Assembly: GCA_031119395.1 (NCBI GenBank)
Contig: JAVHYA010000018.1
Location: 1 to 64,000 of the forward strand
Direction of reading: 5' to 3'
Length of the DNA: 64,000 nucleotides
Source: Pseudomonadota bacterium
GTDB taxonomy: Bacteria; Pseudomonadota; Gammaproteobacteria; Burkholderiales; Burkholderiaceae_C
The position numbers and the translations under genes are program-made. Shown here piece after piece: positions 2,880 to 64,000 of this stretch; position 1 is the first letter of the stretch; each line of letters opens with the position of its first letter. The notes below the pieces were generated by a model. That model saw nothing but the letters and a program-made list of their open reading frames with translations, did no database searches and was not told the origin of the DNA.

Positions 2880-5606
2880 CTATACCGCTTGCGGGTCCGA
2901 ATCGTCGGCGATCCGTATGTCTGCCACCCGCATGGCATCCTTCTGCGGCAGATCGGTTCGCCCGTCTTCATCGGTACGGCCTTCAATGACTTGCCCATCG
3001 TCCAGCGCGATTCGGTAGTGGCGACTCTTCAACGGCGCCCCGGTGGTTCGAAGCGCAAGCACAAAGCGCTCGTCGGTCTTAAGTGAACTACTAGGGACAT
3101 CGACCTGCGGGCTACCCCCACCCGCCCCGCCGATGCTGAAGTCCGGGCTCATGATGTGATGCAGGCTCTGGCTTTGCTCCACGATGCGCCCCTGGCCGTG
3201 GTCGACCTGGGTGCCCTGGGCGATGTAGCGGATGCGAGGCGCCTGGATCACGACCTCCTCGCCCGCAGAGATCACCACGCGCTTGGCCGCGGTGATCTCG
3301 ATGTCCTCCTTGTGCGCCTCGACCTGTACCTTGTCCTCGGCCGAGACGATGCGAATGCCCTTGTGCGCGAAGGCGCTGAAGAGCTCCGCTGCGCGAAGGA
3401 GCAGGCGGCGCCCCGCACTGATCTGCGTGTTGCCGGCGCTCACCGCGTCGATGTGGCTCTGCGCGCCGAGCACCAAAGCGTCCTGACTCACCGCGGCGAT
3501 GCCGGCCGGTGCGTCGATGGCCACCATGGGCGCGCCGCCTTCGCCGGCACCGGGTTTGACGTTGCTGCCGTGCTCCCAAGCCTTCAACTGCTCGAGCAGC
3601 TTGGCGATGCGTGCGGTGTCGCTGTTCTCGGCATGGTGGGTGGATGAAAGGTCGCCCAGCGTCTGCACGATGCCGCGCAACTGCTCGGTCAGCCCGAGCA
3701 AGGCCTGGCGCTCGAGCATCTCGCCGCCAGCCCGATTCTGAGCATGGGCTGTGATGTAGACGCCCTTGCCACCACGAACGGCTGCCTGGGCATCGGTGCG
3801 AACCTCGATGCCTTCGCCCCTGGCTTGGCCCTTGCCGTCGCGACGTGGATGGGTGAGCCAGCCCGCATTCAACTGGCTGGACGCGTGGCTGCTGGCGGCC
3901 TGCAGATTGATCTGGCCGGCCGTGTCGTCATGGCGCACCTGGTTGTGCCCGCCACCATGAATCTCGCGGGTCTTGGTGCCGGAGACATAGCGGTTGCCCG
4001 GCAAATGCCCGACATCGCTGAAGGCGGTAGGGGTGTTGCGTGCGTTGTGCACCACACCGATGACCAGGGGCTTGTCGGGATCGCCACCCACGAAATCGAC
4101 GACGACTTCCTGACCCACGCGGGGGATGAAGTCGATGCCGAAGCCCGCACCGGCCAGGCCTGTGGCCCAGCGCACCCAGGCGCTGTCGCGGTCGGTGCCA
4201 CTGGCACCTGCCCCATCGGCGTGCGCGTGGTCTTCGCCGCGATAGCCCTGGAACTGGATCTTGATGCGGCCCAATTCGTCGGTGTGGACCTCTTCGTCTG
4301 CGGGGCCGACGACCAGGGCGGTGAGCGGCATGGCACGGGGGGCGTCGCGTTGAGCGTCATAGCCCGGCACGAGGGGCACATCCCTGCGGATCGCTTCGAA
4401 GCTGTTGCGGTAGCGTCGCTCGTCCTTCTGGGTGTGCTCGTCGTCCTGGGCGCCCAACAGCAGGTGGACCTGAGCCTGAAGTTGCTTGGGCAGGTTGTTC
4501 TCGGCCCGGTGATGCAGACGGGTCACCACATACTCACGTTCATCGGAGGGATGGGCATCGACGATGGGATGTCCATCGATTCGGATGTATTGGCCCACAG
4601 CGAGGTTGCGTACGCCGCTCTGTCCACGCCCCGACTTGGCCTGCATGTCGTGCCAATCGGCCACGCGGTCGGTGCGTCGCAGGTGGTGCGCACTGTCGTT
4701 GGCGGTATGCGGTGGCTCGATGCGCGCGTCGATCAGCAGTCGGGCCAGGGAATTCCCGCTCGGTCCCTGGTCGACCCGGGCCGGGCGGGTCGTGTCGAGC
4801 ATGCCGACCTGCTTGTAGTCCCAGGTCTTGCGCTCGGCGCCACCGGGCACGAGCTGGCGCTCGAGCACGAGTTGGGTGATTGAATCGCGCTGTTCCGTGG
4901 GGGCGTCCCGGTGGTAGCGCACGGCACCGAAGGGCCAGGCCGGCAGCACATAGGCGTCGTCGAACAGCACCATCTGGTGAGCGGGATTCGATTGCTCAGG
5001 CGCCGGTCGAAAGAACCAGCTGATGCCGGAGCGTCGAAGCAGGTAGCGCACGAACCGGGCATCGCTGATGTTGGCCTGGTGCACGAACTCCCGCCCAGGG
5101 TAGCGCTCGCGCTCCAGGCCCAACTCCTGCAGTTCGAAGCAGGCGGCGAGTTCAGGGCTGCGCTGGCGCCACTCGTCCACCAGCAATTCGACAATCTCGA
5201 GATCGCTCTTGCCCCGAAAGACACGGCTGTTCGTGCGCAGGTCCATGATGGCCAGAGCGTCGGTTGCCTGCAGCTCGTAGACGGCAAGGCTGCCGTCGGA
5301 CTGACCGGCGCGGGCATCAGTGACAAGCATGCAGATGCCATGCAGATCGCCCTGGTCGGTGACGATCTGCACTTCGGCGCTCTGGCCGATGAAATTCTTG
5401 AGGGGGAGGTCGGCGGAGGTGCTCAGGCACACCAGACGAGCTTGAATGCCCTCGAACATCGCTTCGCGGATGTCGATGCGCTGAAGGATGAGGTCGGCAC
5501 CGGCTTGGTTGTCGGGGCCAATTCGCAAGCGCAATGCACGATGGCCACGGCCGAGCAGTTCTGCAGCCAGCAACTGGCGCAGCTCGGCAAATGCCGTCTG
5601 GTTCAT
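2880..5606 (-). CDS. vgrG: Type VI secretion tip protein VgrG
   Basis: Encodes 908 residues of the T6SS spike. Residues about 1-380 are the gp27-like base (PLKNFIGQ, PGREFVHQANISDARFV). A gp5-like OB-fold follows about 425-530 (VHTDELGRIKIQF, DSAWVRWA, FIPRVGQEVVVDF). The DUF2345 beta-helix extension lies about 600-815, with repeats such as HIDAVSAGNTQISAGRRLLL. The last 80 residues form a separate tail, HYRIALDDGQVIEGRTDEDG and onward, which resembles the transthyretin-like C-terminal domains that dock cargo on other VgrGs. The ATG at 5606 has an AGGGAGG ribosome site. The tail plus the lipase immediately downstream suggest the lipase is carried by this VgrG. No PAAR, DUF4123 chaperone or sheath genes are in the window, so this is an orphan vgrG island served by a T6SS elsewhere. 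Confidence 0.93.
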   Translation of the reverse strand: MNQTAFAELRQLLAAELLGRGHRALRLRIGPDNQAGADLILQRIDIREAMFEGIQARLVCLSTSADLPLKNFIGQSAEVQIVTDQGDLHGICMLVTDARAGQSDGSLAVYELQATDALAIMDLRTNSRVFRGKSDLEIVELLVDEWRQRSPELAACFELQELGLERERYPGREFVHQANISDARFVRYLLRRSGISWFFRPAPEQSNPAHQMVLFDDAYVLPAWPFGAVRYHRDAPTEQRDSITQLVLERQLVPGGAERKTWDYKQVGMLDTTRPARVDQGPSGNSLARLLIDARIEPPHTANDSAHHLRRTDRVADWHDMQAKSGRGQSGVRNLAVGQYIRIDGHPIVDAHPSDEREYVVTRLHHRAENNLPKQLQAQVHLLLGAQDDEHTQKDERRYRNSFEAIRRDVPLVPGYDAQRDAPRAMPLTALVVGPADEEVHTDELGRIKIQFQGYRGEDHAHADGAGASGTDRDSAWVRWATGLAGAGFGIDFIPRVGQEVVVDFVGGDPDKPLVIGVVHNARNTPTAFSDVGHLPGNRYVSGTKTREIHGGGHNQVRHDDTAGQINLQAASSHASSQLNAGWLTHPRRDGKGQARGEGIEVRTDAQAAVRGGKGVYITAHAQNRAGGEMLERQALLGLTEQLRGIVQTLGDLSSTHHAENSDTARIAKLLEQLKAWEHGSNVKPGAGEGGAPMVAIDAPAGIAAVSQDALVLGAQSHIDAVSAGNTQISAGRRLLLRAAELFSAFAHKGIRIVSAEDKVQVEAHKEDIEITAAKRVVISAGEEVVIQAPRIRYIAQGTQVDHGQGRIVEQSQSLHHIMSPDFSIGGAGGGSPQVDVPSSSLKTDERFVLALRTTGAPLKSRHYRIALDDGQVIEGRTDEDGRTDLPQKDAMRVADIRIADDSDPQAV

Positions 5607-5757
5607 ACGTTTCCTCCCTGGAAACTCGTCATCAGTTTGCGCAGAAGTCTACCGACAATGTCGAAATCCATTCCCGTGAAGATTGCCCAAATGCCCGCCC
5701 GGACTTGGCCCGTTTCTCGCGTGCCACAATGAATCGGACCTACGAGAAAGCCAAGCG

Positions 5758-7392
<1,635 letters not shown>

Positions 7393-7396
7393 CCCC

Positions 7397-9580
7397 ATGC
7401 AAGCCCTGGCCCTGCCCGACGCCGACCTGCGCGCCCTGACGCGCGCCGAGCACGGCGACCCCTTCGCGGTGCTGGGACCGCACGACACGCCCGAGGGCCT
7501 GTGCATCCGCGCCTTCCTGCCCGGCGCGCGCTCGGTGGGGGTGGTGCACGCCGCCTCGGGCGATCCGCTGGCGGTGCTGCAGCGCCAGGGCGATTCGGAC
7601 CTCTTCGCCGCCCTGGTGCCGGCCGCGCCCGCCCGCATGGGCTACCGGCTGCGCGTGCAGTGGGCGCACCAGGTGCAGCTGCTGGACGATCCCTATCGCT
7701 TCCCGCCGGTCCTGGGCGAAACCGACGTCTGGCTGCTGGCCGAAGGCACGCACCTGCGGCCCTGGGAGCGGCTGGGCGCCCACCTGCTGAACTGGCAGGG
7801 CGCCAAGGGCGTGGCCTTCGCGGTCTGGGCCCCGCATGCGCAGCGCGTGTCGGTGGTGGGCGAGTTCAACCAGTGGGACGGGCGCCGCCACCCGATGCGC
7901 CTGCGCCGCGAATGCGGCGTGTGGGAGCTCTTCGTGCCGCACCTCGTGGCCGGCGACGCCTACCAGTTCGAGCTGCTGGCAGCCGACGGCACGGTGCTGC
8001 GCAAGGCCGACCCCTACGCCTTCGCGTCCCGCCTGCGGCCCGACACGGCCTGCGTGGTGCGGCCGCTGCCCGAGCCGCTGCCGATGCGGCCCGAGCGCGC
8101 GGCCGCCAACGCGCGCCATGCGCCGATCAGCATCTACGAGGTGCACCTGGGCTCCTGGCGGCGCAAGAACGGGCACGAGTGGCTGACCTACCCGGAGCTG
8201 GCCGACACGCTGGTGCCGTACGTGCGCGACATGGGTTTCACGCACCTGGAGCTGCTGCCGGTCACCGAGCACCCCTTCGACGGCTCCTGGGGCTACCAGC
8301 CCATCGGGCTGTACGCGCCCACCTCGCGCTTCGGCACGCCGTCGGAGTTCCGCCACTTCGTCGAGGCGGCGCACGACGCCGGGCTGGGCGTGATCCTCGA
8401 CTGGGTGCCGGCGCACTTCCCGACCGACGCCCACGGCCTGGGCCGCTTCGATGGCACCGCCCTCTACGAATATGCCGACCCGCGCGAGGGCTTCCACAAC
8501 GACTGGAACACGCTGATCTTCAACTGGAGGCGCACCGAGGTGCGCAACTACCTGGTCGGCAACGCGCTGTACTGGCTGGAACGCTACGGCATCGACGGGC
8601 TGCGCGTGGATGCCGTCGCCTCGATGCTCTACCGCGACTACAGCCGCGCGGCCGGCCAGTGGGTGCCCAACGAGCAGGGCGGGCGCGAGAACCTCGAGGC
8701 CATCGACTTCCTGCGGCGCATGAACCGCGTGGTGGGCACCGAGCGGCCCGGCGCCATGACCATCGCCGAGGAGTCGACCAGCTTCCCCGGCGTGACGCGC
8801 CCGCCCGAAGACGGCGGCCTGGGCTTCCACTACAAGTGGAACATGGGCTGGATGAACGACACGCTGGCCTATGCGCACACCGACCCGGTGTACCGCCGGC
8901 ACCACCACCGGCAGATCACCTTCGGCCTGATGTACGCGCACACCGAGAACTTCGTGCTGCCCTTCTCGCACGACGAGGTGGTGCACGGCAAGGGCTCGAT
9001 GATCGGCAAGATGCCCGGCGACGAGTGGCAGCAGTTCGCGGGCCTGCGCAACCTCTACGGCTACCAATGGGCCTACCCGGGCAAGAAGCTGCTCTTCATG
9101 GGCTGCGAGTTCGCGCAGCGCACCGAATGGAACGCCGACCGCAGCCTGGACTGGCACCTGCTCGAGCACGGCGGCGCGCAGCCCCTGCACGAAGGGGTGC
9201 GCCGGCTGGTGCGCGACCTCAACAACGTCTACCGCCACTACCCGGCGCTGCATGCGCAGGACTGCGAAGCGGCCGGCTTCCAGTGGCTGGTGCACGACGA
9301 TGCCGACCAGTCCGTGTTCGCCTTCGTGCGCCAGGCACCCGATGGCGCCTGCGTGGTGGCCGTGTGCAACTTCACGCCCGTGGTGCGGCACGGCTACCGC
9401 CTGGGCCTGCCGCAGGCGGGCACCTGGCGCGAGGCGATCAACACCGACCAGGCGGTCTATGGCGGCTCGGGCGTCGGCAATGCGCCGGTCGGCACCCAGC
9501 CCGTGCCGTGGCACGGGCAGCCGCAGTCGGCCGTGATGACGGTGCCGCCACTGGCAACCGTGCTGTGGGTGCTGGCGTGA
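7397..9580 (+). CDS. glgB: 1,4-alpha-glucan branching enzyme, long form
   Basis: Encodes 727 residues, the usual length for full GlgB. An N-terminal N1 module (about 1-110, [16 protein letters not shown]) precedes the CBM48 module ([20 protein letters not shown], about 137-230) and the GH13_9 catalytic barrel. The catalytic triad is visible: Asp in GLRVDAVAS (about 405), Glu in IAEEST (about 458), Asp in [12 protein letters not shown] (about 526). It transfers alpha-1,4 segments to form alpha-1,6 branches on glycogen in the cytoplasm. ATG 7397 follows the alpha-glucosidase stop by 4 nt, so the two are probably translated together. The window has a second, shorter GlgB in the trehalose operon, and this copy is the one linked to GlgC/GlgA. 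Confidence 0.95.
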
Positions 9581-9600
9581 AGGGCACCGTTTCTCAAGCA

Positions 9601-9655
9601 AAAAGTGGCTGCAACGCCCGCCGTACGGGCGCAAGCAGCTATCGAAAAGATAGCA
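9601..9655 (+). repeat. Two-hairpin intergenic repeat between glgB and glgX
   Basis: This copy has both stems intact: CGCCCG (9615-9620) with CGGGCG (9626-9631), then GCTATC (9638-9643) with GATAGC (9649-9654). Related copies occur between other genes in the window, in both orientations. This one sits inside an operon, in the 82-nt gap between glgB and glgX, with no long T-run after it. It could reduce or process the downstream message. Confidence 0.75.
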
Positions 9656-9662
9656 ATCGACG

Positions 9663-11753
<2,091 letters not shown>

Positions 11754-11788
11754 CCGGCGCCCGCCCACAACGATTCAAGGAGACTCTG

Positions 11789-13134
<1,346 letters not shown>

Positions 13135-13135
<1 letters not shown>

Positions 13136-14601
13136 TGCGCATCCTCCAAGTCAGCGCCGAGCTGTTTCCGCTGCTCAAGACCGGCGGCCTGGCCGACGTG
13201 GCCGGCGCCCTGCCGCTGGCGCTCGCCGCCGCCGGCGAGGACGTGCGCGTGCTGCTGCCCGGCTTCCCGGCCCTGCGCGCGGGCGTGCGCCGCGCCGCGC
13301 AGGTGGCCGAGTTCCGCACCCCCTGGGGCGAGACGGCCCGCCTCGTGCACGGCCACATCGAGCTCAATGCACGCCAGCGCATCGGCACCTACCTGATCGA
13401 TGCGCCGGCGCTGTACGACCGGCCCGGCAATCCCTACGAAGACGCGAACCGCCAGCCCTACGGCGACAACCACCGGCGCTTCGCGCTGCTGGGATGGGCC
13501 GCGGCCCAGCTGGCCCAGGGACTCGACCCGCACTGGCACCCCGAAGTGGTGCATGCGCACGACTGGCATGCCGCGCTGGCGCCGGCCTACCTGGCCCACG
13601 CGCCGGGCGGCGCGCGGGCGCGCAGCGTCTTCACCATCCACAACCTGGCCTACCAGGGCCTGTTCGGCGCCTGGGCCTTCGCCGACCTGGGATTGCCGGC
13701 CGAGGCCTTCCGCATCGACGGGCTCGAATACCACGGGCAGGTGTCGTTCATGAAGGCCGGCCTGCACTACGCCGACCGGCTGACCACGGTGAGCCCGAGC
13801 TATGCACGGGAGGTGCAGACGCCCGCGCAGGGCCACGGCCTGGATGGCCTGCTGCGCGCGCGCGCCGGGGTGCTGCACGGCATCCTCAACGCCGTGGACG
13901 ACGCGGTGTGGAACCCCGCCATCGACACCCTCATCCCCCAGCCCTTCAGCATGCCCGAGGGCCGCCGCATGGCCGGCAAGGCGCGCGGCAAGGCCGAGGT
14001 GCAGCATGCCCTCGGCCTCGCGGTCGACGCCACGGCGCCGCTGTTCGTGCTGGTGAGCCGCCTGACCGAGCAGAAGGGCCTGCCCCTGGTGCTCGACGGG
14101 CTGGACGCGCTGCTCGCGCAGGGCGGCCAGCTCGCGCTGCTGGGCAGCGGCGACGCCTGGCTGCAGGACGCCTTCCGTGCCCGCGCAGCCGCAGCGCCCA
14201 CCCGGGTGAGTGCCACCATCGGCTACGACGAGGCCCTGGCACACCGGCTGTTCGCGGCCGGCGACGTGACGCTCGTGCCCTCGATGTTCGAGCCCTGCGG
14301 CCTGACGCAGATGTACGGCCTCAAGTACGGCGCGCTGCCGCTGGTGCACCGCGTCGGCGGCCTGGCCGACACGGTGGTCGACTGCACCCTCGAGGACATG
14401 GCCGAAGGCACGGCCAACGGCTTCGCCTTCGACGGCTTCGACACCGCCGCCTATGCGCGTGCCGTGCGCCGCGCCTTCGCCCTCTACGACCGCCCGGCCG
14501 ACTGGCGCCGGGTGCGCGCCGCCGGCATGCGCCAGCCCTTCGACTGGGGCACGGCCGCCGCGCAATACATCGACGTCTACCGGCGCGCGCTCGGGCATTG
14601 A
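13135..14601 (+). CDS. glgA: Glycogen synthase (ADP-glucose type, GT5)
   Basis: Encodes 488 residues of a GT5 glycosyltransferase. The N-terminal LLKTGGLADV (Lys15-Thr-Gly-Gly) binds ADP-glucose. The C-terminal Rossmann domain has LVSRLTEQKGLPLVLDGL (about 303) and the catalytic region MFEPCGLTQMYGLKYG (about 382-397). It adds glucose from ADP-glucose to the non-reducing end of alpha-1,4 glucan. The start ATG shares its A with the glgC stop. glgP follows 54 nt downstream. Length and motifs are normal and no defect is seen. Confidence 0.96.
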
Positions 14602-14655
14602 GCACCGGGCGGCGCCATTCGCTTTCCTGAAACCCACGGCCTTCAGGCTTTCGCC

Positions 14656-17118
<2,463 letters not shown>

Positions 17119-43576: not shown

Positions 43577-43789
43577 TCAGGCCGGGAGCCCGGCGCGCGG
43601 CGTCGCGACGCGGCTGCACAGCAGCCCGCGCACCGCGTGCGGTGAGCGTCCGACCTGTTGAACGGCCTGACGCAGCACGGTTTCGGTCACGCCGAATTCA
43701 CCCATCCAGACGCTCACGTCGTCGTGAGAGTCCAGGTCTATCCATGCCGGCTGGCTCAGGACGACGTGGGGGAAGACGGGTGGACTCAT
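43577..43789 (-). CDS. DUF3606-type small protein
   Basis: Encodes 70 residues from ATG 43789 (AAGG 6 nt upstream; a frame extension to 43819 is possible). IDLDSHDDVSVWMGEFGVTE followed by VLRQAVQQVGRSPHAVRGLL matches the DUF3606 pattern: a short helical protein with a conserved FGV...L..AV..VG core. These proteins are common in Burkholderiales and have no established function. It lies 102 nt downstream of the trehalose operon on the same strand and could be its last gene, though the gap makes a separate transcript equally likely. Confidence 0.75.
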   Translation of the reverse strand: MSPPVFPHVVLSQPAWIDLDSHDDVSVWMGEFGVTETVLRQAVQQVGRSPHAVRGLLCSRVATPRAGLPA

Positions 43790-43891
43790 GGCAGGCCTTG
43801 TGGGAAGGAAATGCACCACGGGGGGTGGTGCGGCGCTGCATCATGGTGCGCAAGCCTCGCTGCGCAGCGAGGCGCCCGCGCCACGCGCGTG

Positions 43892-46800
43892 TCAGCCGCC
43901 GCTGACAGGGCGTGCCACGAGCACGGCGCAGGGCCAGTGGCGAAGCAGCGCATCGACCTCCCAGGCCTGGCCCTCGGCCCAGGTGCGGCCGGTCAGCACA
44001 TCGGTCCAGGCGGACGCACCCGGCTGCGTCGGCGACGGCACCACCTGCGTGCCGGCCCAGGCGGTCGATCGCCAGGCGCTCGGCGGCGGCCCGCCTTCCC
44101 GCGCGGACGCCTCGTCCTGCTGCGCGAAGAACCGGCCCGCCACCACGCACACCTGGCCCTGGGGCGTGGCACGGCGGTAGGCGATGGTGGCTGTCGCGGC
44201 CGGGCCCACGACCTCCAGCGCCTCGTGCGGGGCATCGCGCAGCACGGGCCAATGGTCCGCGCGCAGGCGCAGCAGCCGCGACACGGCCCACAGCTTGGCA
44301 TGCGGCAGGCGCCCGGGTGCGAGCAGCGCGTGCAGCCGTTCGGCCAGCCCCTCACCCGCCGAGGCGGCCAGCGTGTCGAGCGCGTCCAGCGCTTGCGCGC
44401 GCAGGGCGTAGTCGACCGGGCGGCGGTTGTCCGGGTCGACCAGGCTGAGGTCGATCCACTCGCTGCCCTGGTAGACGTCGGGCACGCCCGCCGAGGTGAA
44501 CTTCAGGGCCATCAGCACCAGGCTGTTCAGGCCGCCGTACCAGGCCAGGCGCCCGGCCAGCGGCCGGAAGTCCTCCAGGAATCGCGGCGAGCGGTCCGGG
44601 TCGACCAGTGCCCGCACGAAGGCCTCCTGTGCCGCCTCGTAGGCCTCGTCGGGCTGCAGCCAGCTGGTGTGGACCTTGGCCTCGCGCGCGGCCTTGCGCA
44701 GGTAGGCGACGAGGCGGTCGGCATAGTCCGCCGGCGGGCGGCCCTCGGCATCGGCCTCCCAGGTGCCCAGCAGGGTCTGGTAGAGCAGGTACTCGTCCGC
44801 GGCCGAGGGCTCGGTGCCGTGCGCGGTGCGCAACTGGCGGCGCAGCGGCGCCTGGAAGGCGCGCCAGCGGCGCAGCGCCAGGCGCCAGGTGGCCGGCATC
44901 TCCGACAGCACGTCGATGCGGGTGCGCACGTCCTCCGCGCGCTTGTTGTCGTGCGTGGACGTGGCCAGCAGCGTGTGCGGCCAGCGTTCGGCGCGGTCGC
45001 GGCTGGCCGCGTGGAAGGCCTCGAGCGTGAAGCCGAACACCGCCGGCTCGCCGCCCACCTCGTTGAGCGCCACGAGCGGGAAGTGGCGGTAGAAGGCCGT
45101 GTCCTCCACGCCCTTGGCCGCCACCGGCGCGCTGAACTGCTGGAAGCGCGCGGCGAAACGGCGCACCAGCGCACGTGCGGCCTGCGTCGTCCCCGCCTGC
45201 CCGAGCATGGCGCCGCGGATGAAGTCGAAGACCGATGCATCGGCCAGTTCGCTGCGGGCCCGCGCGGCGTCGACCGCCTCGTCGATGAAGCGCCGGTCCT
45301 GCGCGCTCGCCCCGTCGGTCACGTAGGTGCGGTACACGCTCATGCAGGCCACCACCTCGGCCAGCGCGCGCCGCAGGTTGTTGAGCGTGTGGTCGCGCGT
45401 GTGGCGGTCGGCCCGCGCGATGCGCAGCAGCATCGAGGCCAGGGCGGTCATGTCCGAGGCGAGGGCGTTGGTGGTGACAGCACGCTTGCACTGCAGCACC
45501 ACCTCCTCGTAGGGCGTCGCGATGCCGGTGAAGCTGCGCCAGGTGCGTTCGAACGCGGCCTCGGCCGTGGTGTCGATGAGCACGCCGTTGGCCACGTTGG
45601 CGAAGCGGTAGCCCGTGGTGCCGTGGATGGCCCAGGATTCGGGCACGTCCTCGTGGCCGGCGGCGATCTTCTCGGCCACCACGTACAGCGGCCGGTCGGG
45701 CCGGCCCTGGGCATCCGCCCCGCTGCGCGGGCGGCCGATACGGCGTGCGTAGCCGTCCTGCAGGCGCTCGAAGTACTCGGCCGGGTCCCGCATGCCGTCG
45801 GGGTGGTCGATGCGCAGGCCGTCGACCCAGCCGCGCGCGGCCAGGTCCAGCGCCAGGCCCTGCGTGGCCTCGAAGACCTCGGGCAGTTCCATGCGCAGGG
45901 CCGCCAGTTCGTTGACGTCGAAGAAGCGCCGGTAGTTGATCTCGTCGGAGGCCACGCGCCAGAACGCCAGGCGGTAGTGCTGCGCCTCCAGCAGCGCATG
46001 CAGTGCATCGCGTGCGCGCGGCCGGTTCCAGGCCTCGAGCGCCGCGCTCAGGGCCGGCGCGGCGGCGGGCTGGTCGTCCAGCAGCGCCACCAGGCGGGCA
46101 TGCGCCATCGCCTGCTCGCGGGCGCGCACCTCGCGCGCCGCATCGCCGCGCGGCAGGTGCGCGAAGGCATGGCCGATGCTGGCGAAGGCGGCCTGCACCT
46201 GCGCGTCGTCGACCAGCCCTTCGGCCCAGCGCAGCACCTCGGCATAGCTCGCCGGTGCGAGCGGGAAGCGGTGCTCGTGGTAGCGGATCGACAGCGCGCC
46301 GCGCGAGTCGTCCAGCGCCAGCCTCAGCTCGCCGCGGTCGAGGATGGCGCCGTAGCTGTCGCCCAGCACCGGCAGCAGCACCTTGCCCGCGAGGTCGGCA
46401 TCGAGCGGCTGCCATTCGATGTCGAAGAAGCGGGCGTAGGCCGAGTCCTCGCCGTTCTCCAGCACGTCGAGCCACCAGGGGTTGTCGGCGCCCAGCACGC
46501 CCATGTGGTTGGGCACGAGGTCGAGCAGCTGGCCCATGCCGTGGTCCTGCAGCGCCCGGGTGAAGCGCGCGAAACCCTCGAAGCCGCCGAGCTCGGGATT
46601 GACCTCGTCGTGCGCCACCACGTCGTAGCCGTGCCGGCTGCCCGGCCGCGCGCGCTGGATCGGCGAGCAGTACACGTGGCTGATGCCCAGCCGCGCGAGG
46701 TACGGGAGCACCGCGATGGCGTCGTCGAAGGTGAACTCCTCGTGGAACTGCAGGCGGTAGGTGGCGCGCGGGATGCGCGTGCGCGGGGCCGCTCCTGCCG

Positions 46801-49006
46801 CATCCGTGCGCGCGGGCCGCTCCTGCGCCACCGCGGCGGCGACGGCGCACGCGCGTGCCTGGGCCGGCCACCGGTGCGCGGACACCGAGAGGCGGCGACG
46901 CCAGTTGGGGTGGCTGTCGAGCGTGCCTGGCATGTTGGCCTGCTCGTGGTCGCCCAGCAGGTCCTCGGCCTGCACCATCATCAGCCGTGCGGGCGTCCTG
47001 GCGAGGTAGCGGTGCACGGCCGCAGTCGCATCGGCGTCCAGCTCGCCGGCACCGAGCGCGCGCGCCACCGCCTCGGCGTCCAGCAGGCCGGCCTGCTGCA
47101 GCGCGAGCATGAGCTGGGCGCGCTCGGCTGCGCGGTCCGCCAATTGCTGCAAGGCCGTTGCCTCGCGCGGGAACAGGCCCAGCCGGATGCGTTCCTGCAG
47201 GTCGGTCGAACTCCACCAGCCCTGCAGGGTGGCCAGGTCGTGGGTGCTCACCGCCGCGAGCGCCTCGCGCGGGTAGGCCTGCGGCGCCTTGAAGGCCGCG
47301 CCTTCGCGTTCGAAGTACAGCAGCCGGTACGACAGCAGCCCGAAGCGCTGCAGCAGATGCCGCGTCTCGTCCGAAACCGTGCCCAGGTCCTCGCCGATCA
47401 CCATGCAGCGGTGGCGCTGGCTTTCCAGCGCGACGATCGCCAGCATCTCCTCGGCCGGGTAGTGCACGTAGGCGCCCTCGGCCGGCGTGGCGCCGGGCGC
47501 CATGCAGAACAGGCGCGTGAGGCCCATCACGTGGTCGATGCGCAGTGCGCCCGCGCCGCGCATGCCGGCGCGCAGCGTGTCGATGAAGAGCGCATAGCCC
47601 GTCTCGCGCAGCGCCACGGGCTTGAGCGGCGGCAGGCCCCAGTCCTGGCCGAGCGGATTGAACTCGTCGGGCGGCGCGCCCACGCTGGCGCCCGTGGCCA
47701 ACACCGCGCGCGCGCCCCAGGCGTCGGAGCCGTAGCGGTCGACCGACACCGCCTGGTCCAGGTACAGGCCGATGGCCAGGCCCTCGGCGCGACAGCGGGC
47801 CGCGGCCGCCTGCAGTTGCGCATCGGCGACCCACTGCAGCCAGGCGAAGAAGTCCACGCGCCCGGCATGTTCGGACGCGAAGGCACGCACCTGCGGCGTG
47901 TCGGGCGACTGGAAGCCCTCGGGCCACACCGGCCAGCCCCAGGCGGCCGGATCGCGCGCATGGAAGTGCGTCTGCAGGGCGTCGAAGAGCGCGTGCCGCT
48001 GCAGCGCCTGCCCACGCGACGCGACGAAGGCGCGGTAGTCCTCGCGCTCGGCCTGCGCCGGATCGCCCGGCGCCGGCGTGGCCGCGGCGAAGTCGGCATG
48101 CACGAGCGCCAGCACCTCCAGCTTGGCTGCGGCCACCCCGGCATGGTCGACCAGCGCCGCCTCGCGCAGCGCCGACAGCCGCGCCTGGAACTCGGGCGAT
48201 GCCACACGCCGCTGCGCCGCCGGACTGCGCCGGTAGCCCGGCGCCGCCTCGACGTCGATGTACAGCAGGTTCAGGTGCAGGCGCGACGAGGGACTGTAGG
48301 GACTGCGCTTGCCCGGATCGTGCGGGAACAGGGCATGCAGCGGGTTCAGCCCGATCGCCTGCGCGCCCAGCCGCGCTGCCGGCGCCGCGAGCGCGGCGAG
48401 GTCGCCGAAATCGCCGATGCCCCACTGCCCCTCGGAGCGCAGGCCGTACAGCTGCACCGCGATGCCCCAGTGCCGCGGCTCGCTCGCGTCGCCCTCGTCC
48501 TGCCCCGGCACGTAACAGCGCGCCGGCGCGGCGATGACCAGCGCTTCCTCCGGACGGCCCTCGATGCGCAGGCGGTGGTAGCCCATGGGCAGGGCATTGG
48601 CGATGGTTGCCATGCGCTCCGAGACCCATCGGCCGTCCAGTTCCCGGCGCCCGCGTTCTTCCATGCCCTCGAGCACGGCGCTGCCGCGGCGGACTTCGCC
48701 CTGCTCGTCGGTGAGCGTCCAGTCGGCGTGCGACTGGTCGGCCGGCAGGCGCAGCGGCAGGCGCAGGGCTTCGCCCGCATGCACGAGCTGAACGGGCGGC
48801 AGCGCGCGCCGCCACTGCGCGGCGTCGCGCGCGGCCAGCTCGGCTTCCCAGGCCGGTGCATCGTCCGGCGCATGGCTGCCGAAGCCGAATTCGGCCAGCA
48901 GCGCGGCGAGCTGCGCCGGCGCGACCTCGACCCGCCGCCCCCAGACGTCGTGGTAGTACGTGGCGATGCCGGCCCGCAGGCAGGCCCGGTGCAGGGCTTC
49001 AAGCAT
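43892..49006 (-). CDS. Bifunctional 4-alpha-glucanotransferase / malto-oligosyltrehalose synthase (MalQ-TreY fusion)
   Basis: Encodes 1,704 residues in one frame. Residues about 1-725 are a GH77 MalQ: YHDVWGRRVEVAP, WGIAVQLYGLRSEGQWGIGD, nucleophile Asp in GALRIDHVMGL, acid/base Glu in VIGEDLGTV, and STHDLATLQGWW. Residues about 740-1704 are a GH13_26 TreY: RATYRLQFHEEFTFDDAIAV, VDGLRIDHPDGM, VVAEKIAAGHE, STHDNKRAEDVRTRI. An Ala/Arg-rich linker joins them (about 715-740). MalQ rearranges maltodextrins, and TreY converts the reducing end of the glucan chain to a trehalose unit that TreZ releases. Fusion may pass lengthened chains straight to TreY. ATG 49006 overlaps the treZ stop by 8 nt. Both active sites look intact and no internal stop is seen. 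Confidence 0.93.
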   Translation of the reverse strand: MLEALHRACLRAGIATYYHDVWGRRVEVAPAQLAALLAEFGFGSHAPDDAPAWEAELAARDAAQWRRALPPVQLVHAGEALRLPLRLPADQSHADWTLTDEQGEVRRGSAVLEGMEERGRRELDGRWVSERMATIANALPMGYHRLRIEGRPEEALVIAAPARCYVPGQDEGDASEPRHWGIAVQLYGLRSEGQWGIGDFGDLAALAAPAARLGAQAIGLNPLHALFPHDPGKRSPYSPSSRLHLNLLYIDVEAAPGYRRSPAAQRRVASPEFQARLSALREAALVDHAGVAAAKLEVLALVHADFAAATPAPGDPAQAEREDYRAFVASRGQALQRHALFDALQTHFHARDPAAWGWPVWPEGFQSPDTPQVRAFASEHAGRVDFFAWLQWVADAQLQAAAARCRAEGLAIGLYLDQAVSVDRYGSDAWGARAVLATGASVGAPPDEFNPLGQDWGLPPLKPVALRETGYALFIDTLRAGMRGAGALRIDHVMGLTRLFCMAPGATPAEGAYVHYPAEEMLAIVALESQRHRCMVIGEDLGTVSDETRHLLQRFGLLSYRLLYFEREGAAFKAPQAYPREALAAVSTHDLATLQGWWSSTDLQERIRLGLFPREATALQQLADRAAERAQLMLALQQAGLLDAEAVARALGAGELDADATAAVHRYLARTPARLMMVQAEDLLGDHEQANMPGTLDSHPNWRRRLSVSAHRWPAQARACAVAAAVAQERPARTDAAGAAPRTRIPRATYRLQFHEEFTFDDAIAVLPYLARLGISHVYCSPIQRARPGSRHGYDVVAHDEVNPELGGFEGFARFTRALQDHGMGQLLDLVPNHMGVLGADNPWWLDVLENGEDSAYARFFDIEWQPLDADLAGKVLLPVLGDSYGAILDRGELRLALDDSRGALSIRYHEHRFPLAPASYAEVLRWAEGLVDDAQVQAAFASIGHAFAHLPRGDAAREVRAREQAMAHARLVALLDDQPAAAPALSAALEAWNRPRARDALHALLEAQHYRLAFWRVASDEINYRRFFDVNELAALRMELPEVFEATQGLALDLAARGWVDGLRIDHPDGMRDPAEYFERLQDGYARRIGRPRSGADAQGRPDRPLYVVAEKIAAGHEDVPESWAIHGTTGYRFANVANGVLIDTTAEAAFERTWRSFTGIATPYEEVVLQCKRAVTTNALASDMTALASMLLRIARADRHTRDHTLNNLRRALAEVVACMSVYRTYVTDGASAQDRRFIDEAVDAARARSELADASVFDFIRGAMLGQAGTTQAARALVRRFAARFQQFSAPVAAKGVEDTAFYRHFPLVALNEVGGEPAVFGFTLEAFHAASRDRAERWPHTLLATSTHDNKRAEDVRTRIDVLSEMPATWRLALRRWRAFQAPLRRQLRTAHGTEPSAADEYLLYQTLLGTWEADAEGRPPADYADRLVAYLRKAAREAKVHTSWLQPDEAYEAAQEAFVRALVDPDRSPRFLEDFRPLAGRLAWYGGLNSLVLMALKFTSAGVPDVYQGSEWIDLSLVDPDNRRPVDYALRAQALDALDTLAASAGEGLAERLHALLAPGRLPHAKLWAVSRLLRLRADHWPVLRDAPHEALEVVGPAATATIAYRRATPQGQVCVVAGRFFAQQDEASAREGGPPPSAWRSTAWAGTQVVPSPTQPGASAWTDVLTGRTWAEGQAWEVDALLRHWPCAVLVARPVSGG

Positions 49007-50867
49007 GCGCAGCGTCCTCGAGGGCCACGCGCAGTCCGCCCGGGGCCAGGCGCAGGCCACCGGCGTGCGCGTCGCACGCCCGCTCGTAGATGACGCGGCC
49101 GGGCGGCGCGGCCACCTGCGCGGGCTCGGTGCCCAGGTTCAGCACCATCTGCAGATGCGCCGGGGTGCGGCCCCCGTCGAGCACCCACTGCAGGTACAGC
49201 ACCAGCCCGTCGGTGTGCCACAGGCCGCTGCCCGGCCGCGACGGCAGCCGCGGCGCGATCTCGCGCGCACGCACGGCGAGCACGGCACGGGTGTCTTCCA
49301 GGGCCCGGGCGTGCATGCCGCTATTCGCCTCGTCGGCATTCAAGCGCGAGGCCTCGAAGGTGGCCTTTGCATTCGGGTCGGGGATCTGCGCCAGCGCGGC
49401 CTCGCCGTCGAAGGCGGCGAAGCGGCCGAACTCCTCCCGCCGGCCGCGCGACACGGCTTCGGCCAGCTCCGGACCGAAATCGCAGAAGTACAGGAAGGGC
49501 GAGCTGGCCGCGAATTCCTCGCCCATGAAGAGCATCGGGGCATGCGGCGACAGCAGCACCGCAGTGCGCGCACCCTGCACGCGTGCCGGGTCGGCCAGGG
49601 CATCGATGCGGTCGCCGAAGGCCCGGTTGCCGACCTGGTCGTGGGTCTGCATGAAGGAGACGAAGGCGCCGTGCGGCAGGCCCGAGGGGTCCTCGCCACG
49701 GCGCTCGCCACCGCGGAAGGGCGAGGCCTGGCCGGTGTAGAGAAAGCCCTGGGCCAGCGCCCGGCCGAACTGTTCCGCGGGCGCCTCGGCGAAGTCGAGG
49801 TAGTAGCCGTCGGTCTCGCCGGTGAGCAGCACATGCGCGGCGTGGTGCAGGTCGTCGTTCCACTGCGCGGTCGCGACCTCGACGATGCCTCGCGGATCGC
49901 GGCCCAGGAAGCGGGCCTGGTTGAGGTCGTTCTCCAGCACGATGTGCACCGCGCGGTCGCGGCCCGGGCCGTCACGCAGCGCCTGGCAGATCGACGCGAC
50001 GATGTGCTCGCTGGAGTCGTCGCGGATGGCGTGCACCGCGTCCAGGCGCAGGCCGTCGAAGTGGAACTCCTCGATCCAGTACAGCGCGTTCTGGATGAAG
50101 AAGGCGCGCACCGCCTCGCGGCCGTCGCCGTCGAAGTTGATGGCTGCGCCCCAGGGAGTCTTGTGGGCCGGGTTGAAGAAGGCGGGGCAGTAGGTGTGCA
50201 GGTAGTTGCCTTCGGGCCCGAAGTGGTTGTAGACCACGTCCAGCAGCACCATGAGGCCGAGCGCGTGGGCTTCGTCGACGAAGGCACGCAGTTCGTCCGG
50301 CCGGCCGTAGACGCTGTCGGGCGCGAAGAGCAGCACGCCGTCGTAGCCCCAGTTGCGCTGCCCGGGGAAGTCCGCGACGGGCATGAGCTCGACGGCGGTG
50401 ATGCCCAGCGCGGCGAGTTCGGGCAGGCGGCGGCGTGCCGCATCGAAGGTGCCCTCGGGCGTGAAGGTGCCCACATGCAACTCGTAGATGACGGCCTCCG
50501 ACCAGGGCCGGCCGCGCCAGGCCGCGTCCTTCCACGCGTAGGCCGCCGGGTCGACGATCTCGCTCGGGCCGTGCACGTCCTGCGGGTTGGCGCGCGAGGC
50601 CGGGTCGGGCACGCGCAGGCCGTCCGGCAGCGCGAAGCGGTACAGCTCGCCCGGCAGGGCGTCGGGCACGTCGAGCTCGTACCAGCCGCCGCTGCGCGGT
50701 TCCATCGGCTGCACGTCCCAGCGCGCCTCGTCGTCACCGCCGGGCAGGCGACGCTCGAGGCGAACGCCGTCGAGCACGTCGATGCCCGGCGCCCAGAGCG
50801 AGAAGCGCACGCCGCCGTCATCGAGCACGGTCGGACCGAATCGCATGGCCGAGCCATGGGTCTTCAT
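48999..50867 (-). CDS. treZ: Malto-oligosyltrehalose trehalohydrolase
   Basis: Encodes 622 residues of GH13_10. The N-terminal CBM48-like module (GVRFSLWAPGIDVLDGVRLE) is followed by SEAVIYELHVGTFTPEGTFD, the nucleophile Asp in FDGLRLDAVHAIRD (about 274), the acid/base Glu in HIVLENDLNQ (about 310) and the third Asp in QTHDQVGNRAFGDR (about 410). TreZ cleaves trehalose from the end made by TreY, and treY is fused to malQ in the overlapping next gene. ATG 50867 has TAAGG upstream. The preceding membrane-protein gene ends 34 nt away. Confidence 0.95.
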   Translation of the reverse strand: MKTHGSAMRFGPTVLDDGGVRFSLWAPGIDVLDGVRLERRLPGGDDEARWDVQPMEPRSGGWYELDVPDALPGELYRFALPDGLRVPDPASRANPQDVHGPSEIVDPAAYAWKDAAWRGRPWSEAVIYELHVGTFTPEGTFDAARRRLPELAALGITAVELMPVADFPGQRNWGYDGVLLFAPDSVYGRPDELRAFVDEAHALGLMVLLDVVYNHFGPEGNYLHTYCPAFFNPAHKTPWGAAINFDGDGREAVRAFFIQNALYWIEEFHFDGLRLDAVHAIRDDSSEHIVASICQALRDGPGRDRAVHIVLENDLNQARFLGRDPRGIVEVATAQWNDDLHHAAHVLLTGETDGYYLDFAEAPAEQFGRALAQGFLYTGQASPFRGGERRGEDPSGLPHGAFVSFMQTHDQVGNRAFGDRIDALADPARVQGARTAVLLSPHAPMLFMGEEFAASSPFLYFCDFGPELAEAVSRGRREEFGRFAAFDGEAALAQIPDPNAKATFEASRLNADEANSGMHARALEDTRAVLAVRAREIAPRLPSRPGSGLWHTDGLVLYLQWVLDGGRTPAHLQMVLNLGTEPAQVAAPPGRVIYERACDAHAGGLRLAPGGLRVALEDAAHA

Positions 50868-50901
50868 GGAGAACCTTAGGAAAAAAGAGGGAGACAGGAG
50901 A

Positions 50902-51770
50902 TCAGATGGGCGGCGGTGGATCGCCCGGCCGCCGGGGGATGAGCGGCTCGCCGCCGGTGCGTCGCGGCGCGGGCGGGCGCAGCGCGTCGTCCGCAGGCAC
51001 CGCGGCCTCCACGGGCGCCGCGGCCGCTTCCTCGGCCAGGCTCTCGCCCGCGCGGGCGACGCGCTCGCCCGGCACGGGCGCGGGCGGCGGCACACCGTCG
51101 CCCGGCAGGCCGTCGCGCGGGAGCCATTCGTCGATGCGGCGCGCCGCCCACTCCTTGCCCGCCAGGCCGAAAGCCAGTGCGACGGCGAACACGAAGCCCG
51201 CGAGGATCACGATGAAGCTCTCGCGCACGATGTCGCCGCCCACCTTGACCTGGTCCAGCGCGATCAGGATCACGAAGACCAGCACCGCGTACTGCGCCAC
51301 CTTCGAGAAGAAGAAGGCGTCACGCACGCCGACGTTGCGGCAGTAGGTCAGCACGGCGTCACCGACGAAGCGCGCGAAGTACGAGCCGAAGGCCAGCACC
51401 AGCAGCGCGACGAAGATGTTGGGCACGAACCAGACCACCTTGCTCAGCAGGTCGGTCACGTAGGTCAGGCCCAGCCCGTTGAAGGCGACGATGAGCGCCG
51501 CCAGGATGACGACCCAGTAGGCCAGCACCCCCACCACGCCGGTGGTGTCGATCTTCATGCCGCCCTGGCGCAGGAAGCCGTCCAGCCCGGCGCGCTCGGT
51601 CAGCACCGGGAAGTTGATGGCGCGCAGCGCCCGCGTCACGGCGAATCGCACCACCTTGGCGATGAGCCAGCCGGCCACCACGATGAGCGCCGCGAACAGC
51701 AGCCGCGGAATGAAGGCGCCGATCTGGAACAGCATCGCGCGCACCGGTTCCAGGTGAAAGCCGAAATCGT

Positions 51771-51774
<4 letters not shown>
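50902..51774 (-). CDS. Mechanosensitive-channel-like membrane protein (TM-helix repeat type)
   Basis: Encodes 290 residues. Five hydrophobic helices lie at about 20-39, 81-99, 116-133, 160-174 and 186-206. The repeated pattern around [20 protein letters not shown] and [20 protein letters not shown] matches the conserved TM-helix repeat of small-conductance mechanosensitive channel relatives (CmpX-like). No MscS beta-domain follows; instead there is a Pro/Ala/Glu-rich cytoplasmic tail of about 80 residues. The start overlaps the treS-mak stop as ATGA and treZ follows after 34 nt, so it is made with the trehalose enzymes. A role in membrane tension or solute release under osmotic change is plausible. 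Channel activity is not shown by sequence. Confidence 0.8.
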
Positions 51775-55124
<3,350 letters not shown>

Positions 55125-55152: not shown

Positions 55153-57195
<2,043 letters not shown>

Positions 57196-57275
57196 GTCGT
57201 CAGGTCTCGTGGCGGGCCGGCTCGGTGCATGGCTGCCCCGGAGCATGAACGATGCCCGGAGCGGTGCCAAGCACC

Positions 57276-59159
57276 TCAGGCCGGTCCTTTCAGGTACAGC
57301 GTGGACAGGGGCGGCAGCGACAGCACCACCGACTGCGGACGGCCGTGGGAGGGCACCGGCGCCGAATCGACGGCCCCCAGGTTGCCCCAGCCGGAGCCGT
57401 CGAACTCGCGCGCGTCGCTGTTGAGGAGCTCGGTCCAGCGGCCGGCGTGCGGCACGCCGAGGCGGTAGTTCTCGCGCGGCACGGGCGTGAAGTTGCTGAC
57501 CACCAGCACCGGCGCCGCGCCATCGCGGCCCTTGCGCAGGAAGGCATAGACGCTGTGCTGGGCGTCGTCGGCCTCGATCCATTCGAAGCCCTCGCCCGAG
57601 AAATCGAGTTCGTGCAGGGCCGGCTCGCCGCGCAGGGCATCGTTGAGCTGGCGCACCAGCCGCTGAGTGCCGCCGTGGCCGGGCAGGCCGGTGACCCACC
57701 ACTCGAGTTCGCCGTCGTGCGTCCATTCGCGGCGCTGGCCGAACTCACCGCCCATGAAGAGCAGCTTCTTGCCCGGATGCGCCCACATGTAGCCCAGCAT
57801 GGCGCGCAGGTTGGCGAACTGCTGCCAGTCGTCGCCCGGCATCTTGTTGACCAGCGAGCCCTTGCCGTGCACCACCTCGTCGTGCGAGAGCGGCAGCACG
57901 AAGTTCTCGTTGAAGGCGTAGACCAGCGAGAAGGTCATCCGGTGGTGGTGCCATCGGCGATGCACCGGCTCCTCCTTGAGGTAGGCCAGCGTGTCGTGCA
58001 TCCAGCCCATGTTCCACTTCATGCCGAAGCCCAGGCCACCCATCTCGGTGGGGCGCGAGACCATCGGCCAGGCCGTCGATTCCTCGGCCACGGTGAAGGT
58101 GTCGGGATGGTCGCGGTAGACGGCGCGGTTGAGGTCGCGCAGGAAATGCACCGCCTCCAGGTTCTCGCGTCCGCCGTGCACGTTGGGGATCCACTGACCC
58201 GGCCCGCGCGCATAGTCGAGGTAGAGCATCGAGGCCACGGCGTCCACGCGCAGGCCGTCGATGTGGAAATGCTCCAGCCAGTACATGGCCGACGAGAGCA
58301 GGAAGCTGCGCACCTCGTGCCGGCCGTAGTTGAAGATGGCCGAGTTCCACTCGGGGTGGAAGCCCTGGCGCGGGTCGGCATGCTCGTACAGGTGCGTGCC
58401 GTCGAACTGCGCCAGCCCGTGCGCGTCGGTGGGGAAGTGCGAGGGCACCCAGTCGAGGATGACGCCGATGTCCTGCCGGTGCAGGTGGTCCACGAAGGCC
58501 ATGAAGTCCTCCGGCGTGCCGTAGCGCGCCGTGGGCGCGAAGTAGCCGGTGGTCTGGTAGCCCCAGGAGCCATAGAACGGGTGCTCGGTGACGGGCATCA
58601 GCTCCACGTGCGTGAAGCCCATGTCCTTCACGTAGGCGGCGAGCCGCACGGCCAGCTCGCGCCAGCCCAGGAACTCGCCGTCCTGCCGCTGCCAGGAGCC
58701 CGGGTGCACCTCGTAGATGGCGACCGGCGCATCCAGCGCATTGCGCGCGGCGCGGCCCACCATCCATTCCGCATCGGTCCAGGCGTGGGCGCCGCCCCAG
58801 ATGCGCGATGCCGTCGCCGGCGGCAGCTCGGTCTGGAAGGCGAAGGGGTCGGCCTTCTCGAGCGTCTGCCCCTCGGGGCCGACGATGCGGTACTTGTAGG
58901 TCTGTCCGGGCTGCGCCTGGGCCACGGTGCCTTCCCAGATGCCGCTGCCGTCGTCACGCACCTGCAGCGCATCGGCGTCGCTCCAGTAGTTCCAGTCGCC
59001 GATCACGTGCACCTGGCGCGCATTCGGTGCCCAGACGGCGAAGTGCACGCCACCGCGCGGCTGCAGGTGGGCGCCCAGGCGTTCGTGCAGGCGCGTGTGC
59101 GTCCCCTCGCGAAAGAGGTGCAGGTCGGCGGGCGAAAGGGGGGCGTGGGTGATCGGCAT
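57276..59159 (-). CDS. glgB: 1,4-alpha-glucan branching enzyme, short form (copy 2)
   Basis: Encodes 627 residues, about 100 fewer than copy 1: the N1 module is missing and the protein begins directly with [20 protein letters not shown] and the CBM48 module [20 protein letters not shown]. The GH13_9 triad is intact: Asp in [11 protein letters not shown] (about 304), Glu in TVAEEST (about 357), Asp in [12 protein letters not shown] (about 426). It would branch the glucan made by GlgE. ATG 59159 is taken because a longer frame (to 59207) adds only non-conserved residues. The 190-nt gap to glgX2 holds a repeat hairpin. Confidence 0.95.
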
Positions 59160-59286
59160 GGAGGAGCGGGAACGGAACCCGGTTATAGGCCGCCGCCGCG
59201 CGGCCACGCGGCGGGGTTCGCCTGAGGGTCCTGTCGGACGATGCCCCTCATCGGCAGATCGTCACGTTCGTGACGAGTTTGGCGCC

Positions 59287-59349: not shown

Positions 59350-64000
<4,651 letters not shown>

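Follow-up and report, generated by a model that had tools for sequence, protein, structure and literature searches.

The window analysed here, a 64,000-nucleotide stretch of contig JAVHYA010000018.1 from a member of the Burkholderiaceae_C (order Burkholderiales), carries a genuine MalQ-TreY fusion, confirmed as two whole enzymes in one frame. Judged by its sequence, the gene very probably specifies a bifunctional 4-alpha-glucanotransferase / maltooligosyltrehalose synthase with a flexible tether between the halves, and lies in a collinear treZ-malQ-treY cluster together with treS-mak, glgE, glgB and glgX. This would place MalQ where linear glucan can turn into trehalose or maltose-1-phosphate. 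The coordinates of the fusion, its parts and its neighbors are collected in Table 1.

Table 1. Features of the fusion gene and its cluster, with positions counted in the window.
Feature	Position	Strand	Evidence and remarks
malQ-treY fusion gene	43892..49006	minus	1,704 aa; ATG 49006-49004; stop ends 43892
MalQ N-terminal beta-sandwich domain (MalQ_N), aa 69-161	48524..48802	minus	Pfam PF21226, 9.8e-17
GH77 catalytic domain, aa 184-707, with D491, E539, D590	46886..48457	minus	PF02446 and alignment
Linker, aa 708-744	46775..46885	minus	alignment, dN/dS, structure model
TreY (GH13_26) part, aa 745-1697, with D1067, E1112, D1353	43916..46774	minus	TIGR02401; own-genome match 43916-46771; alignment
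treZ frame	48999..51095	minus	TreZ match 49113-50810; stop overlaps fusion start
treS-mak fusion (trehalose synthase-maltokinase)	51771..55124	minus	family models
glgE frame, domains from about aa 195	55153..57726	minus	PF11896, PF21702
glgB	57276..59207	minus	NF003811, 966 bits
glgX frame, debranching enzyme from about aa 393	59350..62652	minus	TIGR02100, 1043 bits

The fusion and its family models

Translation of the minus strand gives a fusion frame of 1,704 residues free of internal stops. Its GH77 domain scores 386.6 bits with Pfam PF02446 (2.2e-115, cut-off 25), and both halves pass their NCBIfam models: malQ TIGR00217 at 461.4 bits against a cut-off of 205.65, and TIGR02401 for TreY at 942.9 bits over aa 746-1697 against 498.65, with a Pfam alpha-amylase domain at aa 765-862 forming the start of the TreY barrel. 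The earlier note had described one uninterrupted frame holding complete GH77 and GH13_26 enzymes, which these matches bear out; its coordinates are correct as well, and the strand, absent from that note, is minus. The best sequence matches among solved structures are 4-alpha-glucanotransferase 4s3p for the first half and the maltooligosyl trehalose synthases (MTSase) 6lcv, 6lcu, 5zcr and 1iv8 for the second. The GH77 catalytic region aligns with 4s3p, which we take to be E. coli MalQ, and the TreY catalytic region with 6lcv.

The MalQ-TreY architecture is not new, being already catalogued as NF011077 (PRK14507.1), a model of 1,693 positions that shares the MalQ-then-TreY order and the length of the window protein. 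Since it is titled "malto-oligosyltrehalose synthase", the model's name conceals the MalQ half. It is matched end to end (aa 3-1698 on positions 6-1690 of 1693), yet the window protein, at 2120.2 bits, misses the curated cut-off of 2148 and is therefore classed as a MalQ-TreY fusion by its domains rather than as a formal NF011077 equivalog.

An assembly or frameshift artefact could in principle create such a frame; we give this practically no credence, as it is refuted by the same continuous frame in other genomes and in named records. Three near relatives (L131, L133 and L135; 91-93% identity) have the fusion in one frame, dN/dS stands well below 1 in both halves, and Xenophilus and a Comamonadaceae isolate supply the nearest named records, at 91-93% identity. 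A gene on the plus strand at the same position was rejected: that frame is open, yet the family matches fall on the minus strand. The antisense open frame (window 43658-49093, plus strand, 1,811 codons) spans the whole fusion and is probably a mirror of GC content.

Catalytic residues and linker

We aligned 36 fusions, the window's included, after trimming N-terminal stop-to-stop extensions. The other 35 share 41-52% identity with the window's protein over the best BLAST segment. D1067, E1112 and D1353 of the TreY half are each present in all 36, as is E539 of GH77, while D491 and D590 are each present in 35; we take D491, E539 and D590 (GH77) and D1067, E1112 and D1353 (TreY) to be the catalytic Asp/Glu/Asp residues. 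The window protein thus has both catalytic sets, as had been noted earlier, and we infer that both of its halves would be active. Both GH77 aspartates are missing from one fusion (L034, genome G030), so a MalQ half can decay. The same genome has a second, separate MalQ place (L114) besides this decayed fusion.

The linker, reported before as short, has 37 residues here and 31-46 residues, counted from the last GH77 motif to the first TreY motif, across the 36 fusions, with little sequence conservation. Such variability is more suggestive of a tether than of a rigid channel. In comparisons with three near relatives, dN/dS comes to 0.10-0.135 for GH77, 0.13-0.20 for TreY, 0.18-0.35 for the N-terminal part of MalQ and 0.37-0.73 for the linker, the last being rough as it covers 37 codons. 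Against two Pseudacidovorax records every part falls at 0.39-0.64 and the linker does not stand out; in one of these comparisons it is no less constrained (0.45) than TreY (0.53). An AlphaFold model of aa 520-1704, which truncates the GH77 part and took 28 of the 36 fusions as input, has a mean pLDDT of 85.3 and a pTM of 0.78. A helix is predicted at aa 717-729, and beyond it confidence drops below a pLDDT of 50 (aa 733-740), as it also does in stretches of the truncated GH77 segment. The low-confidence stretch of the modeled linker would suit a short flexible tether.

Gene neighborhood

Read 5' to 3' on the minus strand, the cluster runs glgX, glgB, glgE, treS-mak, a small membrane protein, treZ and malQ-treY. 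The treZ TGA (49001-48999) overlaps the start of the fusion (ATGctTGA). Between treS-mak and treZ, the membrane protein (window 50902-51771, minus strand) has two stretches matching PF05552, the mechanosensitive channel TM helix, and frames resembling it are found in Xenophilus, Pseudacidovorax and several more fusion-bearing loci. A link between osmotic sensing and trehalose synthesis through this protein is possible.

The window's genome contains a single GH77 match, a single TreY above the cut-off and, on a different contig, one OtsA-family match. A second glycogen cluster lies in the window at 5683-17118 (plus strand), with a GH13 enzyme, glgB, glgX, glgC, glgA and glgP, and is adjoined by a VgrG-family gene (type VI secretion) at 2880-5606 (minus strand).

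Distribution of the fusion

The earlier note had proposed a survey of the fusion in Burkholderiales; when this was run, the fusion was found and proved not to be restricted to that order. Searching with NF011077 located the one-frame fusion in 29 of 300 genomes of the order and 8 of 369 genomes of the class, the window's own included in both, and matches above the 2148-bit cut-off in 25 of 300 and 4 of 369, respectively. Fusions broken across contig ends (G073, G170, G557) are left out of the fused counts. Even the window's own family is patchy, with the fusion in 3 of its 9 genomes listed in the order-level set. At an E-value of 1e-60, extra MalQ-only places accompany the fusion in 3 of the 29 genomes (G020, G030, G140) and an extra TreY-only place in one (G224).

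A scan of named records returned 71 loci, 32 of them with both halves in one frame, although in one of the 32 (L153) the MalQ front sits in a second frame. Holders include Xenophilus, Pseudacidovorax, Variovorax, Sterolibacterium, Gallionellaceae, Thiohalocapsa, Halochromatium and Lamprobacter, and the alphaproteobacterium Chelatococcus sp. CO-6 has a fused frame that its annotation calls treY only. Limitation to Burkholderiales is contradicted by Chelatococcus and by Halochromatium, Thiohalocapsa and Lamprobacter (L149, L150, L152, L169, L174), the last three presumably gammaproteobacteria. The fusion is apparently old. In Aquincola (L155:2190-7400), the frame that holds TreY is 1,737 aa long, and the roughly 770 residues ahead of TreY gave no family match.

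In the literature, the MalQ-TreY fusion is absent from the titles and abstract starts among the matches listed, and the exact phrase returns 0; most subscription journals lie outside the coverage, so this silence is weak evidence of absence. Other natural alpha-glucan enzyme fusions have already been published, among them GlgB/MalQ of Neisseria suica and TreS-Mak of Estrella; their partners differ from those of the window's fusion, and MalQ-TreY is not mentioned in the available parts of these accounts (PMC11046441, PMC7935935). The catalogued GlgX-MalQ fusion (NF011082 / NF011083, PRK14510) is another bifunctional protein with a MalQ half, which differs in that the partner is a debranching enzyme and MalQ is C-terminal.

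Synteny and history

Wider fusion contexts were painted with the window's reference genes only, so that other intervening genes would stay invisible. In all 20 of these contexts the first painted gene upstream is treZ, on the same strand, and treS-mak can be seen upstream in 18. Unfused loci have the order treZ-malQ-treY with malQ and treY as separate genes in 14 of 20 chosen loci. Of 30 contexts, 23 have the candidate fusion start overlapping the treZ stop, 3 have it at most 8 bases away and 4 have it at a distance of 36-621 bases; the start codon was taken as the one nearest to the end of treZ, a choice biased towards overlap. Such overlap suggests, short of proof, coupling with treZ.

We built trees of each half from chosen fetched loci rather than from all matches, leaving out pieces below 450 aa (TreY) and 400 aa (MalQ). 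On the unrooted TreY tree (69 rows) the fused label changes 9 times, with 2 changes forced by starred branches, and on the unrooted MalQ tree (74 rows) 13 times, with 7 so forced; the idea that the fusions form one clade was not upheld by these changes. In the careful MalQ tree a standalone MalQ (L107) nests firmly among fused ones, with L008 at 100/100. Because standalone MalQs nest in this way, the halves have evidently parted or joined more than once; the trees, being unrooted, do not tell gain from loss. Within the same clades, each half is also found unaccompanied by the other.

The window's TreY half is nearest to L021, and its MalQ half pairs with the same locus at 86/86 in the careful tree (LG+G4 instead of the mixture model), while a larger quick MalQ tree leaves it unplaced and away from L021. 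A test that constrained the window's MalQ half to a ten-row clade, chosen once the first trees had been seen, did not reject this placement (p-AU 0.244). Separate origins for the two halves were considered and not upheld, as the careful MalQ tree agrees with the TreY tree.

Predicted function

In the mechanism that we propose, GlgX would free short linear chains, from which the MalQ half, by disproportionation, would make longer chains together with maltose or glucose. Isomerization of reducing ends would fall to the TreY half and TreZ would liberate trehalose, with TreS-Mak and GlgE able to send trehalose or maltose back to glucan. The fusion would set a 1:1 ratio of MalQ to TreY on one glucan pool, through a flexible tether and not a dedicated tunnel.

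Among the systems considered, the nearest that has been studied is Pseudomonas aeruginosa PAO1, in which, according to the available part of its description (PMC8084333), one cluster contains glgA, treZ, malQ, treY and glgX and a separate operon contains GlgE and TreS-Pep2. As in the window, treZ, malQ and treY adjoin; unlike in the window, malQ and treY are separate genes, and PAO1 is without otsA/otsB whereas the window's genome has its OtsA-family match. The same portion of that source reports that trehalose went up from 0.13 to 0.32% on deletion of malQ and that MalQ together with TreS/Pep2 converts maltohexaose to maltose-1-phosphate.

One way to read the fusion is as a channel in which short maltodextrins pass from MalQ to TreY and nearly all glucan ends as trehalose. 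The available text of PMC11611815 lends this some chemistry, since MTSase and MTHase leave small maltooligosaccharides unused and addition of a CGTase (not MalQ) raised trehalose production by 20% in vitro, and the recurrence of the fusion in many genomes also speaks for it. Against it stand the rise of trehalose on malQ deletion in P. aeruginosa (PMC8084333, as far as available), the variable linker, the presence of either half alone within the same clades, and the OtsA-family match, glgP and second glgX of the window's genome. On balance we think this reading unlikely. Of what the earlier note proposed, the general idea that MalQ extends chains which TreY handles poorly is sound as chemistry, given the CGTase result (PMC11611815), but its suggestion that the fusion channels chains is not supported, nor is the further claim of a conversion of almost all glucan to trehalose, which runs counter to the PAO1 deletion (PMC8084333), within the available parts of both sources.

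Alternatively, the MalQ half may serve mainly as a branch point that yields maltose for the maltokinase of TreS-Mak and onward to GlgE, competing with TreY for chains while the fusion sets the split. This agrees with the bypass from MalQ to maltose-1-phosphate described for PAO1 in the available part of PMC8084333, with treS-mak upstream in 18 of the 20 fusion contexts, and with Azospirillum and its kin, in which a single frame joins MalQ to a maltokinase and TreZ. In the window, however, the maltokinase is joined to TreS and not to MalQ, and maltokinase-TreZ-MalQ does not appear among the TreZ frames listed for 398 genomes of the phylum; as the main role of MalQ we hold this somewhat unlikely.

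The reading to which we commit is that of one enzyme with two tethered activities, placed at a branch point; its surest effect would be the fixed stoichiometry. This reading was chosen because deletion of malQ raised trehalose in PAO1 and MalQ fed maltose-1-phosphate there, despite the sound chemistry of chain lengthening. Channelling is unproven, and the net effect on trehalose may go either way. Natural fusions of this kind, and likewise those uniting MalQ with a maltokinase and TreZ, could act as one-piece catalysts from maltodextrin to trehalose.

Other fusions along the cluster

Neighboring genes of the cluster are joined in several further ways. Maltokinase, TreZ and MalQ form one frame in 10 loci (L160, L161, L163, L168, L172, L173, L212, L213, L214, L257) from Azospirillum, Indioceanicola and a Rubritepida MAG, the frame being cut by the left end of the locus in 5 of them. 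In 8 of the 10, the painted frame that follows is TreY; in the other two (L168, L173) TreY was not found in the approximately 3 kb that follow. The Azospirillum ramasamyi example (L212:6557-12163) is one CDS of 5,607 bases and 1,868 aa, named treZ, with Mak_N_cap, TreZ-type, MalQ_N and GH77 domains, and the motifs visible in its translation are presumably those of a kinase and a hydrolase. In Azospirillum sp. B510, a lone stop codon (L257:9321-9323) separates the MalQ-bearing and TreY frames. TreZ and TreY share a frame without MalQ between them at L159:1189-5919 and L245:6833-11752, GlgX and TreY at L252:6947-11746, and MalQ and GlgB at L253:3414-7712 and L254:5152-9282.

These fusions bear on a third explanation of the window's gene, namely that it is a near-neutral by-product of a tight collinear operon, in which neighbors become joined with little functional effect. 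The joining of other pairs elsewhere (TreZ-TreY, GlgX-TreY, MalQ-GlgB, and Mak-TreZ-MalQ in its 10 loci) and the single stop in Azospirillum sp. B510 favor this. Against it, fusions as far apart as 41-52% identity still have both halves intact in 35 of 36 cases, which suggests maintenance of the fusion at the least. We give this explanation a sizeable chance, if less than an even one.

In the phylum draw, TreZ is present in 80 of 398 genomes, and the TreZ frames listed above 1,200 aa number three (G733, G697, G863): one TreZ-TreY, one cut by a transposase and one TreZ alone. No Mak-TreZ-MalQ was seen among the TreZ frames listed for these 398 genomes. With so few long TreZ frames, such fusions are a minority. 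Two candidates were rejected: in L246, an apparent TreZ-MalQ has a truncated MalQ that runs into an IS1634 transposase match, and a 1,343-aa frame in L247 holds TreZ alone.

The varied fusions along one cluster, and above all Mak-TreZ-MalQ, are a more interesting lead than MalQ-TreY itself. Tentatively, and with doubt prevailing, the collinear mak, treZ, malQ and treY cluster may be regarded as an incipient assembly line whose neighbors have been joined differently by lineage, as MalQ-TreY, TreZ-TreY, GlgX-TreY or Mak-TreZ-MalQ. If so, MalQ would be wired to both trehalose release and maltose phosphorylation, and different branches of a single metabolic node would have been hard-wired in different lineages. 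The MalQ-TreY and Mak-TreZ-MalQ fusions are ready natural tests of whether joining enzymes shifts the split of flux. The annotated copies that we opened are named treY only (Chelatococcus sp. CO-6) or treZ only (A. ramasamyi), so the MalQ half is missing from gene lists.
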